Part shown: piece by piece, positions 5,823-38,971 of the stretch
Position numbering within the stretch: the stretch's first letter is position 1
Layout: every line of letters begins with the position of its first letter
From: a virus
Strand: one strand, 5' to 3'
Length of the DNA: 38,971 bases
IMG/VR virus record: IMGVR_UViG_3300020219_000029
Span: 1-38,971 of that record
Made by a program: the position numbers and the translations under genes
The notes under the pieces: model-generated
The model's database searches: none
Told to the model about the DNA's origin: nothing
What the model saw: the letters and a program-made list of their open reading frames with translations, nothing else

Positions 5823-6154
5823 CGGAAAAACTGCCAGAATTCAGCCCGAAATGCCGGTGTACAGCCTGCAAATCGTTGGATACGACCATAGTTTCGACGC
5901 TGATCAAGAAGCGTCGCAGATTTCACAAGTGCAAAGCATGTGGCCACAAATTCCGATCTGAGATGCTGGACCATGAAAACTACGAAAAATCGACCGTCAG
6001 ACTGCGAAAACCGAAGAAATTTGAGTGGAACGGGCAGAAAAAAACGATCAAAGAACTTGCGTCAGAGGCCGGCATTAAGGAAAAGACGCTGAGAACTCGT
6101 CTGCATCGCGGTATGACGCTCGCTGAGGCGATGACCGTGGCGTTTTCTGGATAG
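5819..6154 (+). CDS. Zinc-ribbon protein B with C-terminal helix-turn-helix
   Basis: A 111-residue protein overlapping gene A by 4 bases. Residues 12-50 form a zinc ribbon (CRCTACKS, then HKCKACGHKF), paralogous to the end of protein A. The C-terminal part (KTIKELASEAGIKEKTLRTR) looks like a helix-turn-helix of the kind found in small phage and homing-endonuclease-associated DNA-binding proteins. A DNA-binding regulator is likely. Its last codons lie within a 79-base direct repeat whose second copy precedes cas12m. Confidence 0.65.
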   Translation: MTEKLPEFSPKCRCTACKSLDTTIVSTLIKKRRRFHKCKACGHKFRSEMLDHENYEKSTVRLRKPKKFEWNGQKKTIKELASEAGIKEKTLRTRLHRGMTLAEAMTVAFSG

Positions 6155-6219
6155 TTTGCAAAACTTTCGTATATGTCACAGAATTGTCTGTCGGGGCTTC
6201 TGCATGTGGCGTATCAATG
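6141..6219 (+). repeat. 79-base direct repeat, copy 1
   Basis: About 91% identical (7 differences by eye) to 11950-12028. It begins in the last codons of zinc-ribbon protein B, includes a promoter-like motif, and ends with GTATCAATG, the first nine bases of the CRISPR repeat. The two copies bracket the 5.8-kb accessory block. Confidence 0.85.
6168..6181 (+). promoter_or_regulatory. Promoter-like motif, copy 5
   Basis: CGTATATGTCACAG, identical to the copy at 11977 before cas12m. No strong gene begins close by; the next clear start is at 6452. Confidence 0.5.
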
Positions 6220-11949: not shown

Positions 11950-12028
11950 CGTTTTCCGAATAGTTTCGAAAACTTTCGTATATGTCACAGAATTGTCTGC
12001 CGGGGCGTCTACATGTGGCGTATCAATG
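11950..12028 (+). repeat. 79-base direct repeat, copy 2 (cas12m leader)
   Basis: About 91% identical to 6141-6219. Here it ends in GTATCAATG and runs straight into a near-perfect CRISPR repeat. It may be the leader of the system. Confidence 0.85.
11977..11990 (+). promoter_or_regulatory. Promoter-like motif, copy 6 (cas12m)
   Basis: CGTATATGTCACAG, 135 bases before the cas12m start. The long leader contains two CRISPR repeat copies. It probably drives cas12m and the array as one transcript, since no other promoter-like motif lies before the array. Confidence 0.55.
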
Positions 12029-12097
12029 GTATCAATGCCTACTCAGTGGCTTCGTAACAGAGACTTAAACGCCTACTCAGTGGCTTCGTAACTGAGA
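12029..12097 (+). repeat. Two CRISPR repeat copies in the cas12m 5' leader
   Basis: 12029-12064 is a full 36-base repeat with one change (T to A in the 3' arm of the hairpin stem). Five to six bases later, 12071-12097 carries 27 bases identical to the repeat's 3' portion, with an intact CTCAGT/ACTGAG stem. Its end lies 3 bases before the GGGGTG ribosome site and 14 bases before the GTG start of cas12m. There is no room for a spacer between them. The position suggests control of cas12m translation or mRNA stability by its own product. Confidence 0.9.
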
Positions 12098-12111: not shown

Positions 12112-14076
12112 GTGGCTATACTAAACTGGTGTTACGGGGCAAAAGCGCCAACTCAAAACGCATCTATGGTTGATCAGCAAATCTGGCTGGCGCACCGATA
12201 TAAAAACAAACTGATCGAGATCGATAACGCCAGACGACAAAAGGCGTCACTGTCTGCGATGTCACTGTATCCACAGTTCGATGTCGCGATGAAATCATAC
12301 TCTGCCGCATGTGTCGTATTGGACGCAGCGTATGCGGCTGTCAAGGCAGCACGGTCGAAAGCAAAAAAGCGGATCGATGCGACTGACGAACAGCAGGCGG
12401 CTATCGATGCCGCAAAAGCGTCGCGTAAATCCGCAGCAAAAAACATGCAGGAACATAAATCCACAGCATGGAAGATTTTGGCCGAGGCGCAGAAGCCATA
12501 TCGTGACATAGCCGAGTCGGTCACGGAGATCCCAGATGGTGCAACAGACACGCATCGGAAAAAACTGATCCGCGACAGATACCTCCAAATGCTGGAAGAT
12601 GCAGGTCTTTCATCCGGCGAACAGGAACATTCTATCGCAGTGAAACGTGAACGCAATAAGTGTGGCTGTTACTGGGGGACGTACCTGATCGTTGAAGATG
12701 CAATGAAAGACATACATAAAGGCGCACCAGCTAAGTTCAGACGGTTCGAAGGTGACGGATCTATCGCCGTCCAATTGCAGGGTGGACTCACATACGTAGA
12801 CGCAATCGCTGGCACCGACACACGATTACGACTGTATCTGCCAAAACTCACAGAGCGTATGGCTGTCACTGGATGCGATAGTGGCCTGGACGCAGTCGGT
12901 GAGGCATGGATTCGCATCGGAACTGAGAACAACAAACCAGTGTGGTCCGTTGTTCCGTTCTGTTATCACCGTGAAATCCCACCTGATGCTGTAATCAAAT
13001 GGGCATTTATTGATCGGAAGCGAGTTGGCTTGCATGATCATCACACGCTGCGATTAACGATAGCCACGACGATGGATCGTCATGCGACGGATGCGACGGC
13101 CAAATGTGCTATCCATTGTGGCCACAGGATGGTAAGTGGCGGATTGCGAGTTGCCACTGCGCTGACAGATACAGGGATTCAGGAACTCATTATTCCGTCA
13201 GACGAGGTCGATCGTTTTGCTGAATCGTACAACCTCGTGGCTATTCGAGATTCGGTGTCTCACGACGTGTATGCTGAGTTCGTGGACTGGATTCGCACGA
13301 TTAAGGCGAATGAGTGGTTCGACACGCAGACAGAGACAATCGCGCATTGGCAGGGAGCGAATCGGCTTAATCGTCTCGTAAGGCTATGGCGTGATAATCG
13401 TTTTGAGGCTGATTCAGAATCTGCCTCGCATATGCCAGAAACATTGAGTTGGGCGATGTCGAAGTTGTCAGAATATAACGCAACGTCTGGCTATCATCCA
13501 GTGAATCCAGATGACCTGTCAACCGTGTATGGATTGATGGAGTTTTGGCGTCGGTTCGACAAGCATCTCCTGGAATGGGCTGCAAACTCCAAGCGGAAAT
13601 GCGGTAAGAGACGGGAGCAACTGTTTCGTGGTTTTGTCAAGAATCTTCGGCGTGAAAATAAAACCGCCGTCATAGCGAAGATCGACTGGGCTAAGTTGAG
13701 AGAAAAGCCAGATACTGACGAAGATGACGACGTGTGTACAAACATTCGCCGTCTCGCGGGCGTTGCATCGCCAGGGAGGCTGTCGGAAATCTTGAAGGAG
13801 GTGTTTGGTGGCGACTGTGTGTCAGTAGCATCGAAGGACATAACCAGAGAGTGTAGTGAATGTGGGAAATTGCATGAGTTCGACAGGATGAAGATCGTCA
13901 CAACATGCCGACACTGCGGTGCGGAATATGACCAAGACCATAACGCCGTACGGAACACGATGGCGAGAGGCGATGTGGTGTCACAGAAAAAACAGGAAAA
14001 CGCTGGGAAAAATAACGAAGAAATGGAGAAAAAAAAGAGTGCTCGCAAAGTGCGACGTAACCGCAAGTCTGTATAG
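12112..14076 (+). CDS. cas12m: Cas12m-type CRISPR effector (type V-M), predicted nuclease-inactive
   Basis: A 654-residue RNA-guided DNA-binding protein, close in length to known Cas12m (about 600). Blocks that fit Cas12m include QQIWLAHRYKNKL (22-34), FRRFEGDGSIAVQLQGG (209-225) and WIRIGTENNKPVW (266-278). The RuvC domain is C-terminal: motif I is AIHCGHR (333-339), with His 335 where active enzymes have Asp; the presumed motif II, VIAKIDW (520-526), has Lys 523 near the expected Glu; motif III YDQDHNAVRN (606-615) keeps Asp 607 and Asp 609. A zinc ribbon uses Cys 581, 584, 599 and 602. Known Cas12m binds DNA at TTN-flanked targets, silences without cutting, and processes its own crRNA. The start is GTG with GGGGTG upstream. 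No cas1 or cas2 is present; the array begins 17 bases after the stop. Confidence 0.85.
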   Translation: MAILNWCYGAKAPTQNASMVDQQIWLAHRYKNKLIEIDNARRQKASLSAMSLYPQFDVAMKSYSAACVVLDAAYAAVKAARSKAKKRIDATDEQQAAIDAAKASRKSAAKNMQEHKSTAWKILAEAQKPYRDIAESVTEIPDGATDTHRKKLIRDRYLQMLEDAGLSSGEQEHSIAVKRERNKCGCYWGTYLIVEDAMKDIHKGAPAKFRRFEGDGSIAVQLQGGLTYVDAIAGTDTRLRLYLPKLTERMAVTGCDSGLDAVGEAWIRIGTENNKPVWSVVPFCYHREIPPDAVIKWAFIDRKRVGLHDHHTLRLTIATTMDRHATDATAKCAIHCGHRMVSGGLRVATALTDTGIQELIIPSDEVDRFAESYNLVAIRDSVSHDVYAEFVDWIRTIKANEWFDTQTETIAHWQGANRLNRLVRLWRDNRFEADSESASHMPETLSWAMSKLSEYNATSGYHPVNPDDLSTVYGLMEFWRRFDKHLLEWAANSKRKCGKRREQLFRGFVKNLRRENKTAVIAKIDWAKLREKPDTDEDDDVCTNIRRLAGVASPGRLSEILKEVFGGDCVSVASKDITRECSECGKLHEFDRMKIVTTCRHCGAEYDQDHNAVRNTMARGDVVSQKKQENAGKNNEEMEKKKSARKVRRNRKSV

Positions 14077-14093: not shown

Positions 14094-14705
14094 GTATCAA
14101 TGCCTACTCAGTGGCTTCGTAACTGAGACGTTCGCCGGTCGTTGCTTGCCGTCTGCGCCTGTTTTCGTATCAATGCCTACTCAGTGGCTTCGTAACTGAG
14201 ACAACTCGGAGCAGGATCGGGAAAGAACAGACTCACAGTATCAATGCCTACTCAGTGGCTTCGTAACTGAGACATTAAAATAGCAGCAAATTAACTGCTT
14301 TCTGGTAAGGTATCAATGCCTACTCAGTGGCTTCGTAACTGAGACATAGATAGCGTGTCCAGGATCGAAAGCCCAAAACGCTGTATCAATGCCTACTCAG
14401 TGGCTTCGTAACTGAGACGTGAGCTCGATTACGCTGGCAGACGCTACGTTCATCGTATCAATGCCTACTCAGTGGCTTCGTAACTGAGACAGTGAAGATT
14501 TTGTCCGGTAAATGGTTGGTCGTTTGGTATCAATGCCTACTCAGTGGCTTCGTAACTGAGACCTGGTAAGCACTTTTAGAATCAGCGCTCTGAAACACGT
14601 ATCAATGCCTACTCAGTGGCTTCGTAACTGAGACCGGCAGATACCAATGAGTGATCGTGCAAGTTTCTGGTATCAATGCCTACTTAGTGGCTTCGTAACT
14701 GAGAC
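14094..14705 (+). CRISPR. CRISPR array, 9 repeats and 8 spacers
   Basis: 36-base repeats start at 14094, 14167, 14238, 14310, 14383, 14455, 14527, 14599 and 14670. All are identical except the last, which has one C to T change, marking the leader-distal end and transcription in the + direction. Each begins GTATCAATGCC and ends ACTGAGAC; the 3' part folds as CTCAGT-loop-ACTGAG. Spacers are 37, 35, 36, 37, 36, 36, 36 and 35 bases. Spacer 5 resembles the start of terL; spacers 3, 6 and 7 resemble the hairpin element at 14725 and 34360. No separate leader lies between cas12m and the first repeat. Confidence 0.99.
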
Positions 14706-14724: not shown

Positions 14725-14770
14725 AAACTGCTTACCAGCAAGCACTTTCGGTGAAGATTTTGTGGCGTAA
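14725..14770 (+). repeat. Dispersed hairpin element, copy 1
   Basis: Begins AAACTGCTTACCAGCAAGCA, holding a hairpin TGCTT(ACCAGC)AAGCA, and ends GAAGATTTTGTGGCGTAA. It is nearly identical to 34360-34406. It lies 19 bases after the array and about 100 bases before the promoter motif of the portal operon. Spacers 3, 6 and 7 are diverged versions of parts of it. Confidence 0.85.
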
Positions 14771-14777
14771 ATTGTGA

Positions 14778-14822
14778 GGTCAAATCGGATTGTGATTTGT
14801 TCCGCACAATCCTAATGTGACC
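14778..14822 (+). other. Stem-loop after the array
   Basis: GGTCA...GGATTGTG, a 10-base loop, CACAATCC...TGACC: an 8-bp perfect inner stem and a 5-bp outer stem separated by an internal loop. There is no T-run. It could stabilise or end the array transcript, or bind a regulator ahead of the late operon. Confidence 0.55.
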
Positions 14823-22410: not shown

Positions 22411-23325
22411 ATGGGATCATATGTAGCATACGATGTTGTGTTTGGTGGATCACCAGACGTGGTCGTTCGTAATGTAAGATCGGTCGGGTATAACGACTCC
22501 GCTCAGGTTGTTATCGACCGAGCGGCAGGTTCGGCTGATCCGGGTAAGTTTTACCTCGGAACTTCTGAGCCGATGAACAGCCTTCAGTCTACAGATCTCG
22601 TGACTCTTTTGGGGCTAAATGGCGGTACGTTTGTTTCATCCGGCATTTGCTTAAACAGCAACACATTGACGATTCCAGTAGCTGTGCGTGCAGATTGCGC
22701 AGTATTGACGGCAGGTGCAACGCATGACAGAATGGCTGGTCCCGCAAGCATCACGACGCCAACTCAGTTCGAGGTGCGTCAGGATTCTGAAGAGGGAGCA
22801 ATGTGCAGTTTCGAAGTGCGGTGGCGGAGCAGTGACGGAATTCTTATACCAGTCACTTACACTCCCGCTGGCTATACACTCACAGCGTCTTCACTTGGAA
22901 CGACATTCGGGCTTGGGAAAGCATTCATCGATAACGTGGAGATCGGCTTTCTAACAGGTATTGTTGTTAATCCGGGTATCCAGATCCTGACGCAAAGATA
23001 CGGAGGCGGAATTTTCCCCCGTAATCATTTCATCCAGTACCGTGAGCCAACGATCGATATTCTGTGCGAAAACCTGTCACTGGCATCATCATTTATGCAC
23101 TCTTACAGCAGCACGCTTAACGCCGCGCTGCGTGTGTTTTTCAGGGCCAGAAAAGATGGCGCAACATATGAACCAGAAGCAGGGTTCAGCCATGTGAGAT
23201 TTTCCTTCGCAGCCGGGTTCTACAAGATCGAAGCATTGGACGCCGCACAGAGCGGTAATGGGTCAGCCACAATCCGCTGTTACGGGAAATCATTGGTATC
23301 TGCAACAGGCGTTGCAATCGCGTAA
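22411..23325 (+). CDS. Probable major tail (tube) protein
   Basis: A 304-residue beta-rich protein, Ser/Thr/Gly/Ala-rich with few charges, in the slot before the tape measure gene. The strands (YVAYDVVFGGSPDVVV, TIPVAVRADCAVL) and length fit a tail tube protein that stacks in rings around the tape measure. No specific family identified. Ribosome site AAAGAGG. A promoter-like motif lies 5 bases after its stop. Confidence 0.55.
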   Translation: MGSYVAYDVVFGGSPDVVVRNVRSVGYNDSAQVVIDRAAGSADPGKFYLGTSEPMNSLQSTDLVTLLGLNGGTFVSSGICLNSNTLTIPVAVRADCAVLTAGATHDRMAGPASITTPTQFEVRQDSEEGAMCSFEVRWRSSDGILIPVTYTPAGYTLTASSLGTTFGLGKAFIDNVEIGFLTGIVVNPGIQILTQRYGGGIFPRNHFIQYREPTIDILCENLSLASSFMHSYSSTLNAALRVFFRARKDGATYEPEAGFSHVRFSFAAGFYKIEALDAAQSGNGSATIRCYGKSLVSATGVAIA

Positions 23326-24044: not shown

Positions 24045-26477
24045 ATGGGCAATACAATCAAGAAGACGTTTTCGGCTGATACATCTCAGTCCGAAATCGC
24101 GATTGATAAACTGGAAGCGAAGATCGTCAGCCTTGAGCGTAAGATGGTCACGCTCACAGCAAGGTCTGCAGCGTCGAATAAGACGTTCGGAAACTCATGG
24201 AACGCTGTCAAAAATCGCGTCGATGAGTACACCAAGGCTTTGAAGGCTGCTACGAATCTGAAAGACTGGTACGCAGCGACTGAGAAGTTGCAACAGGCGC
24301 AGCGTGAGTTCGCTGAAATAAATGCCTCGGTTGTGCAGTTGACACAATCGCAAGCTGCAGCAGCGGCTTCAGCACGCGGTTCGTACGACATGTTGCGTGA
24401 CGCCATCGATAGAACCCGCAAGGCACGCGATGCTGCCATGAAGGGATCTTCGGAGTTTGGCGCACTGGACGCAAAGCTCAAGCGTCTTACGGAAGGCTAT
24501 AATCGGCTGACATCAGCTACTGAGGCAAGCACAAAGGCTGCTTCAAAACAATCTTCAACTTTCCGCATGAACAGTAAGTCAATGGAGGGCGTTTCGCTTC
24601 AAATTGATGTTCTGCAGGCTAAGTTAGACAAAATGTCGCCTGGTAAGGCATTCAATAAACTGGCCGCTGTCATAAATAACCTGAAGGCGCAGCTTAGGGA
24701 TATGGAGAAAACAGCAGGCAGTGCAGGCAAGTCATTGGACGCGGCTGCAAGCGGGGCTGTAGGTTCATTTGCGCGTCTTGATGCAGAGCTTAAGAAGGCA
24801 GTGCGAGACCTGAAAAATATGACCGCTGGCACGGCGGCGTTTACAGCGCAGTCTGCGAAGGTTGCCGCGATGCGTGCGGAATGGACAAGGCTTGATGCCG
24901 TGATCAATAAGGCCGGCAAATCACAAAAGGAAATGTCTGGCATCGGCGGCACGATGGTTGGAGAGGCCAAGTCGTTTCTCGCCACATATATCGGAATTCA
25001 TCAGGTGATGCAGGAGATTACGAAGGAGTGGGAGAAACAGCGAGCATTCCAGATCGATGCCGGGGCGAAAGGTACAGCGACACAGGAAGCATTGGTTCGG
25101 CAGGCTCCCAATATAGGCGTTGAGAACCTTTCGCGAGTTAAGAAATGGGCTCGCGATAGTCAGGTTGACCTTGGTGTAGAGCGTCAGTCGGATCTCGTGA
25201 ATCTGGTCGGCAAAGCCATTTCGGGTGGTGTCGAAGATCCTGATACGGCTATGAAAGTCGTCGAGGCGGCAGTTAAGCTAAATGCTGGGGATGTTGAGCT
25301 TTCAGATGAAACAATACAGGGCGGCGTGGTGGTAGCGAGGTTAAATAATTCTGACGACTATGAGGCAGCGTTCGGCCAATTGAGATCATCTACCAAGGCA
25401 TCACAGGCTGTGAATGAAAACGAGTTCATCGGCAATGTGATGGGGAAGATGGCAGCACTCACACGCGGTCGCTCAAATATGGATGGCATGAGCACCGAAC
25501 GATCTTTGGAATACATCACGGCGGCGAGCCGTATTCAAGTGGATCGAACAGGTGAAACATCCAGTACGAATATGGCGGCAATCTTTCAGAGGATGGACGA
25601 GTTTAGTCCTGAGCACCGTAAGGTGCTGAAGGATAAGTCGGTTTCGACAATCGACGCTGAGACAATCAAGGCATTCAAGAGTGCCAGGTCATTCGATGAA
25701 AAACTCAGCCTGTTGCAAAACAATGAGGAGCTCGGAAAACAGTTTATTGATAAGCAAAAAACTGGTGGGCCAAAGGAACTGGCGTTTGCCTTAGTTCAAA
25801 ACAACCAGGCTGTACAGCAGATTATGAAGGAATCGAAAGACGCCGTTAAGCCCTTTGATGAGTCCGCGCCGGTGTACAAGAAGGCTGTTGAGGATTTGCA
25901 GAAAGAAATTCCGGATTTGATTGCTAGGCGACGTATTGCGGCGGGTGCTGAATACTCTTCCACAGATGACAGAACGATTCTGGAGGGATCTTCCCGTAGT
26001 GCGTACGATCAGATCTGGAATGGTACAGAGACGACGCCGGCAAAGAACCTGAGTGGCTGGGATACGCAAGCGAGAGGCGAGGCATACGCACAGACGTTGG
26101 CGATGCGCCAGGCGCGAAAACTGAAAGGACTTGCTCCGAACGAGGCAGCGGAAAGGGCTGCTGGGGTTAAGTTTTTGATAGAACGTGAAGAAACAAAAAC
26201 AGGCATGACTGGAGGAGTATTCAGGAATCTAGCTATGGGTTCAGGTACTGGCGTGATCCTTGCCGCAATTCTGAAAATGTCTGGCGAGAATAAGCCAGCA
26301 CTGGATGACATGCGCGTGAAGCTCAGTGAGCTCAATCGCATCGCAGCCTTGCTGGATGAACAGAACAGGCTGATGAAACAAGGGGCCGGTAACCCTGCTG
26401 CACCTCCATCTCCATCAAGTGTACGATTGCCTTCACCGCCAGTTCCACGAGCGCCTGTTGTGGCAGGAGCAAACTGA
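24045..26477 (+). CDS. Tape measure protein
   Basis: An 810-residue protein that spans the tail lumen and sets tail length. Residues 1-300 are long coiled coils rich in Ala, Lys and Gln (KLEAKIVSLERKMVTLTARS). A hydrophobic segment near residues 725-740 (MGSGTGVILAAILKM) resembles the membrane-inserting part of tape measures. The C-terminus is Pro/Ala-rich. At 810 residues a tail of roughly 120 nm would follow from the usual 0.15 nm per residue. It overlaps the next start by 1 base. Confidence 0.85.
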   Translation: MGNTIKKTFSADTSQSEIAIDKLEAKIVSLERKMVTLTARSAASNKTFGNSWNAVKNRVDEYTKALKAATNLKDWYAATEKLQQAQREFAEINASVVQLTQSQAAAAASARGSYDMLRDAIDRTRKARDAAMKGSSEFGALDAKLKRLTEGYNRLTSATEASTKAASKQSSTFRMNSKSMEGVSLQIDVLQAKLDKMSPGKAFNKLAAVINNLKAQLRDMEKTAGSAGKSLDAAASGAVGSFARLDAELKKAVRDLKNMTAGTAAFTAQSAKVAAMRAEWTRLDAVINKAGKSQKEMSGIGGTMVGEAKSFLATYIGIHQVMQEITKEWEKQRAFQIDAGAKGTATQEALVRQAPNIGVENLSRVKKWARDSQVDLGVERQSDLVNLVGKAISGGVEDPDTAMKVVEAAVKLNAGDVELSDETIQGGVVVARLNNSDDYEAAFGQLRSSTKASQAVNENEFIGNVMGKMAALTRGRSNMDGMSTERSLEYITAASRIQVDRTGETSSTNMAAIFQRMDEFSPEHRKVLKDKSVSTIDAETIKAFKSARSFDEKLSLLQNNEELGKQFIDKQKTGGPKELAFALVQNNQAVQQIMKESKDAVKPFDESAPVYKKAVEDLQKEIPDLIARRRIAAGAEYSSTDDRTILEGSSRSAYDQIWNGTETTPAKNLSGWDTQARGEAYAQTLAMRQARKLKGLAPNEAAERAAGVKFLIEREETKTGMTGGVFRNLAMGSGTGVILAAILKMSGENKPALDDMRVKLSELNRIAALLDEQNRLMKQGAGNPAAPPSPSSVRLPSPPVPRAPVVAGAN

Positions 26478-34359: not shown

Positions 34360-34406
34360 AAACTGCTTACCAGCAAGCACTTTCGCCTGAAGATTTTGTG
34401 GCGTAA
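34360..34406 (+). repeat. Dispersed hairpin element, copy 2
   Basis: Nearly identical to 14725-14770, with the same TGCTT(ACCAGC)AAGCA hairpin and the same GAAGATTTTGTGGCGTAA end, one base longer in the middle. It lies 15 bases before promoter-like copy 10. The rest of the gap from 34194 holds no clear gene, only the upstream region of the antisense gene and a weak CGACGA/TCGTCG inverted repeat. Confidence 0.85.
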
Positions 34407-38702: not shown

Positions 38703-38971
38703 ATGGCTGATATTAAATTCGAGTACCCAGCAGAAGCTGATGTTACAATTACGCTTGCGGCATTGGCTACTTCGTCAACGAGACTCGTTGGGCGACAATC
38801 GACAGCGATCAACAATACCGTAAACAAGTACCTCGACTACCTCGTCAGTGGTCGGATCATGACCGGCACAACGCCTACGACGGCGAGGTCTATTGAGATC
38901 TGGTGCGTCGCAGCTTTGGACAACGCAGCACCGACGTACCTTGCTGGCTTCGGTGCCAGTGATGCAGCAGG
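38703..38971 (+). CDS. Unknown protein, cut by window end
   Basis: ATG 38703 opens a frame that stays open to the last base (at least 89 codons, beginning MADIKFEYPAEADVTITLAA). It is Ala/Thr-rich and beta-prone, similar in composition to virion proteins. It starts one base after the previous stop, so it belongs to the same operon. Too little remains to assign it. Confidence 0.55.
   Translation, partial: MADIKFEYPAEADVTITLAALATSSTRLVGRQSTAINNTVNKYLDYLVSGRIMTGTTPTTARSIEIWCVAALDNAAPTYLAGFGASDAA

Follow-up and report, generated by a model that had tools for sequence, protein, structure and literature searches.

Effector, array, and genomic context

The DNA analysed here (the window; 38,971 nt, IMG/VR record IMGVR_UViG_3300020219_000029) encodes a Cas12m-like effector adjoined by a CRISPR array, and two copies of a dispersed element lie outside the array (Table 1). 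The last 127 nt of the window (38845-38971, plus strand) are identical to the first 127 nt of a second contig (G001; IMGVR_UViG_3300020219_000016, 71,914 bp), and the first 44 bases of this overlap were found in no other IMG/VR contig. Assemblers run at k=127 leave exact 127-nt end overlaps between adjacent contigs. Since the overlap is exact, window and G001 are very probably parts of one phage of at least 110.8 kb, as judged from their sequences, and their GC contents agree (0.515 and 0.509, respectively). The same overlap makes it very improbable that G001, as it first seemed, is a separate, related phage carrying the element. Therefore, features found on G001 are not treated as independent evidence.

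When compared with PADLOC profiles, the effector matched Cas12f (1.6e-73) and Cas12u1 (2.4e-73), and it matched a solved Cas12m structure (PDB 23vw) at E=2.6e-45, while its identity to plasmid and phage homologues was 22-27%. By these matches it is a homologue of Cas12m / V-U1 and belongs to type V-M. Alignment with the plasmid and phage homologues placed the predicted RuvC residues at H335, A522, and D609. Since these positions read H-A-D, the two-metal D-E-D centre is missing, and the replacement of Asp by His in motif I and of Glu by Ala in motif II predicts an effector that does not cut DNA. It probably grips DNA without cutting, a mode of action with precedent, i.e., non-canonical Cas12m2 silences by strong binding at targets with a 5'-TTN PAM (PMC10442227), and binding by Cas12m effectors, which read ~18 bp, blocks phages and plasmids (PMC11013384).

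The array adjoining the effector gene has, by sequence, the V-M repeat architecture, and the 3' half of its repeat resembles repeats beside the cas12m genes of Allomeiothermus and Methylomonas. No Cas1 was found in the window or in G001. Taken together, effector and array indicate that the phage carries a compact type V-M-like CRISPR system.

Table 1. Positions of the effector gene, array, matching spacers, and element copies in the window
Feature	Position	Strand	Basis
Two solo hairpins resembling the CRISPR repeat, in the leader directly before the cas12m start codon	12029..12098	+	
Cas12m-like (type V-M) effector, 654 aa, GTG start	12112..14076	+	PADLOC, PDB, homologue alignment
CRISPR array with nine 36-nt repeats and eight 35-37-nt spacers	14094..14705	+	
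Spacer 3; 3' 17 nt (AACTGCTTTCTGGTAAG) match the element palindrome	14274..14309	+	
Spacer 6; module beside the palindrome matched by nt 2-14 and 18-23, TTC PAM at 14747-14749	14491..14526	+	
Spacer 7; one mismatch to the palindrome core (minus strand) over nt 1-14, adjoins TTG	14563..14598	+	
Palindrome of element copy 1 (AAACTGCTTACCAGCAAGCACTTTCG); intergenic, with the 14895 gene and the portal gene downstream	14725..14750	.	
Element copy 1, downstream module GTGAAGATTTTGTGGCGTAAA	14751..14771	+	
Palindrome of element copy 2, same sequence as in copy 1; the 34455 gene lies downstream	34360..34385	.	
Element copy 2, downstream module TGAAGATTTTGTGGCGTAA	34388..34406	+	

Hairpins resembling the CRISPR repeat also occur singly outside the array, at 12042, 12076, and 21034 of the window and at 12915, 14750, 27807, and 62654 of G001, where ~0.05 per strand would be expected by chance. 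All are on the plus strand, and several lie directly upstream of start codons, including that of cas12m. In the hairpin at G001 14750, a stem pair is kept through changes on both sides. These solo repeats may serve in leaders as sites to which Cas12m binds, for autoregulation, or may be RNA anti-CRISPR-like units. When the sequence following them was read as guides, no above-null match was obtained in the phage except to the repeat itself.

A second dispersed sequence, a CGTATATGTCA-like motif, is present in the window (53, 4251, 6168, 11977, 14867, 16794, 19248, 23330, and 34421) and in G001 (8870, 12866, 15453, 33073, 52357, and 59703). It is often ~20-35 nt upstream of genes and is likely a phage promoter or leader motif. 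The motif is included in a 79-nt duplication (window 6141-6219 and 11950-12028; 91% identical) that ends in GTGGCGTATCAATG and abuts the first leader repeat of cas12m.

The dispersed element

A near-palindrome of 24-26 bp (AAACTGCTTACCAGCAAGCACTTT) occurs at 14725 and 34360 of the window and at 24727, 30768, and 51332 of G001. Each of the five copies is intergenic and has plus-strand genes downstream; for the copy at G001 24727 this holds when the gene is taken to begin at the ATG that follows its first possible GTG. The module TGAAGATTTTGTGGCGTAA follows the palindrome in both window copies and in none of the three on G001. A TTN is present on each strand of the element core, and predicted RNA folds for four copies ranged from -3.6 to -11.4 kcal/mol. 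The sequence fits an RNA hairpin and a DNA-binding palindrome (operator) equally well, and the element is presumably regulatory.

The degenerate pattern describing the family (AASTGCTTNCYRGNAAGCASTTT) matched only G001 in IMG/VR. When ~85,000 prokaryote genomes were scanned for the palindrome family, four isolated hits with unrelated flanks were obtained, which by our own estimate is probably about the number expected by chance; a host chromosome as the element's home is not supported by these hits. Searches of IMG/VR with the Cas12m and capsid proteins recovered no close relatives, and a second phage with the element was not found, the sole other carrier contig being G001, i.e., the continuation of the same genome. 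On these comparisons the element looks private to this phage and, by extension, its kin.

Similarity of spacers 3, 6, and 7 to the element

When the masked 39-kb window was scanned with the spacers, the top two hits were the two element copies for each of spacers 3, 6, and 7, and for no other spacer. Against the five element copies they scored 14, 13, and 13, respectively, whereas among 4,000 36-mers taken from elsewhere in the phage the frequency of scores of at least 13 was 0.0005 and that of scores of at least 14 was 0/4000. The preliminary description had proposed shuffling as a check, and the three spacers did exceed their dinucleotide shuffles (P=0.000, 0.004, and 0.002), while the other five scored at the null level. 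Homology of spacers 3, 6, and 7 to the element is therefore well supported at the sequence level. A 14-nt match of spacer 8 at 23305, which has no TTN PAM, was judged to be chance, and matches that spacers 2 and 5 gave at the protein level (p 0.01-0.02, uncorrected for frames) were discarded.

The match of spacer 6 described previously was reproduced at 14750-14785, where 22 of the first 29 positions agree, with 13 exact (GTGAAGATTTTGT) followed by GTAAAT, and TTC stands directly 5' of it. The last 17 nt of spacer 3 and the first 14-15 nt of spacer 7 match the palindrome in both window copies. Spacer 7 starts exactly at the palindrome centre, and its nt 1-10 are exact on the minus strand, adjoining TTG in both window copies and TTT in G001 (51345); it also matches the phage's own copies at nt 12-14/15, with TTG/TTT at three of them. 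The TTN reported before the matches of spacers 6 and 7 was thus present and in register, with the proviso that TTN is the PAM taken over from known Cas12m and that TTC, TTG, and TTT were seen only at the diverged matches of these two spacers.

As had been described, spacers 3 and 7 overlap, sharing 8 nt at their ends, and match the palindrome. Joined, they give a 23-nt composite (AACTGCTTTCTGGTAAGCACTTT) that the family pattern accommodates. Given the near symmetry of the element, they align better to its opposite strand: of the 23 positions of the composite, 3 differ from the window copies on the minus strand, 4 on the plus strand, and 2 differ from the copy at G001 51332. The earlier impression that changes were confined to the hairpin loop was an effect of orientation. 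The statement that all three spacers fall on the same element needs a similar adjustment: spacers 3 and 7 cover the palindrome, while spacer 6 covers the adjacent module, which is present only in the two window copies. No known copy has the flanks seen in spacers 3 and 7, and the module matched by spacer 6 is missing from them; therefore, the three spacers appear to go back to at least two different element copies.

We found only one further phage-borne V-M-like system, that of Virus Rctr197k (KX853510.1, 110803-114219), in which an effector annotated as 'similar to transposase' stands beside an annotated CRISPR array of ~20 spacers. None of its 20 readable spacers gave a self-match above null. 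Therefore, the scan itself does not generate the spacer-element pattern, and, as far as this single comparison goes, phage V-M arrays do not show the pattern in general.

Searches for the source of the spacers

Exact and degenerate pattern scans of IMG/VR yielded no exact protospacer of spacers 3, 6, or 7, and all of the pattern-scan hits had unrelated flanks. A blastn search with the whole array against INPHARED phages and PLSDB plasmids likewise gave no exact protospacer, and neither did a search of INPHARED phages with the composite of spacers 3 and 7. Near-exact protospacers in a related virus were not found in these three databases, which gave only the diverged matches to the phage's own element; no targets were found for the other five of the eight spacers. 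The preliminary description held that the three spacers hit the element in relatives and proposed exact protospacers in related phages as its check. None was found in IMG/VR, INPHARED, or PLSDB. The homology on which that claim was built stands; its assignment to relatives gained neither an exact protospacer nor a second carrier. From the homology combined with the divergence, we infer that the spacers were derived from relatives.

Proposed mechanism and alternatives

We consider it probable, with some reservation, that guides 3, 6, and 7 target variants of the element in relatives and that a non-cutting Cas12m blocks the element there. Three of the eight crRNAs would be aimed at variants of an element of which the phage itself has at least five copies. 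When a competing relative infects the same cell, these crRNAs would lead Cas12m to those element copies in the relative that are flanked by TTN; Cas12m would bind them without cutting, and block both use of the element and transcription through it. A repeated control element would suit an effector that acts by binding, as a single crRNA could serve many sites. In the phage's own copies, only 14-16 of the first 20 guide positions are matched; the mismatches fall in the PAM-distal half and on one or two positions of the seed, for which reason these copies would be spared or bound more weakly. That the true targets lie in relatives, and that binding blocks the relative, we infer from these features. 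The mechanism is weakened by the failure to find an exact protospacer or a related phage with the element, and by the five of eight spacers that have no target. A published observation also counts against it: changing the motif-II Asp of MmCas12m2 to Ala (HAD) reduced DNA binding and silencing (PMC10442227), and the natural alanine A522 occupies this same position.

In a bolder and distinctly more tentative form of the proposal, Cas12m might be an RNA-guided substitute for an immunity repressor, several of its guides occupying one operator-like element dispersed over the genomes of relatives and so conferring homoimmunity without cutting, while the phage's own copies have drifted only enough to be spared or merely tuned.

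The chief rival explanation, which we regard as unlikely, is self-regulation, i.e., crRNAs tuning the phage's own genes through 10-13-nt seed matches beside TTN, as in CreTA. A non-cutting effector would make self-binding harmless, and seeds are kept in the phage's own copies (for spacer 7, nt 1-10 beside TTG/TTT in three copies; for spacer 6, nt 2-14 beside TTC at 14750). In addition, partially complementary guides that repress transcription are known (PMC8501985), and solo repeat-like hairpins lie upstream of several phage genes. However, the own copies agree at no more than 16 of the first 20 positions, compared with the ~18 bp read by Cas12m (PMC11013384), the mismatches and the unrelated flanks have the look of a copy from another phage, not of selection for self, and the match of spacer 3 is at its PAM-distal end, where it would be useless for seeding.

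The spacers could also be ordinary, kin-derived ones without special meaning, captured wherever TTN occurs and sampling the element because it is repeated. Phage arrays against other phages are known (PMC7162821), and a multicopy element with a TTN on each core strand does raise the chance of capture. Yet element copies make up <0.5% of the known genome and account for three of the eight spacers, two of which (3 and 7) share 8 nt at a single type of site, and we consider this explanation improbable as well. Still less probable is that the true targets reside on a non-phage replicon (host chromosome, satellite, or plasmid) sharing the element, since the ~85,000 genomes gave only four isolated hits with unrelated flanks, about the chance number by our own estimate, and PLSDB plasmids had no match, although an unsampled satellite could share phage regulatory sites. 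Chance similarity selected by eye is highly improbable: the element was chosen post hoc and the matches are short (13-17 nt), but three of eight spacers reach P<=0.0005 each, both element copies are the top two window hits for each of the three, and the TTN register and the independent agreement of the 3+7 composite with the pattern of the five-copy family also argue against it.

If blocking of the element in relatives is indeed what these guides do, this would be natural inter-virus CRISPR interference aimed at a repeated control element instead of genes, and few guides could silence many transcription units of a rival simultaneously. The system would also offer a test bed for how a non-cutting effector discriminates self from a relative's element, and for why V-M systems spread on mobile elements.

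Comparison with known systems

Type V-M (Cas12m) systems are mostly carried by plasmids and some prophages (PMC10442227, PMC11013384, PMC11656645). The system described here resembles them in its effector family, its ~36-nt repeat with a GCTCAG...CTGAGAC hairpin and ~72-nt period, its apparently TTN-compatible targets, its predicted non-canonical RuvC, and the lack of Cas1 in window and G001. It is unlike known type V-M systems in being carried by a large phage, in its predicted H-A-D active site, in the apparent convergence of three guides on one dispersed element of the carrier's own kind, and in having solo repeat-like hairpins in phage leaders.

Two further systems invite comparison. Mycobacteriophage stoperators, which function in superinfection immunity (PMC9283540, PMC6550527), similarly provide one blocker with many sites across relatives' genomes; here, however, the blocker would be a crRNA-guided Cas12m instead of a repressor, acting at candidate sites. 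The guides CreA / CreTA (PMC8501985) likewise combine partial complementarity with a PAM, and they repress transcription; a putative PAM and a 10-13-nt seed are present at the phage's own element copies as well. Those guides are type I and toxin-linked, whereas here full-length spacers sit in a normal array.

Phage spacers that hit other phages are established (PMC7162821, PMC11656645). As in phage-borne arrays and mini-arrays (PMC11656645; PMC7162821), the spacers here are apparently directed against related or competing viruses, and adaptation genes are absent. In contrast to those arrays, this phage has its own, probably non-cutting effector, and the apparent target is a repeated non-coding element instead of a structural or regulatory gene. 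Virus-borne CRISPR aimed at kin is thus known already; what is new is the combination of a probably non-cutting effector with what is apparently a repeated non-coding target.
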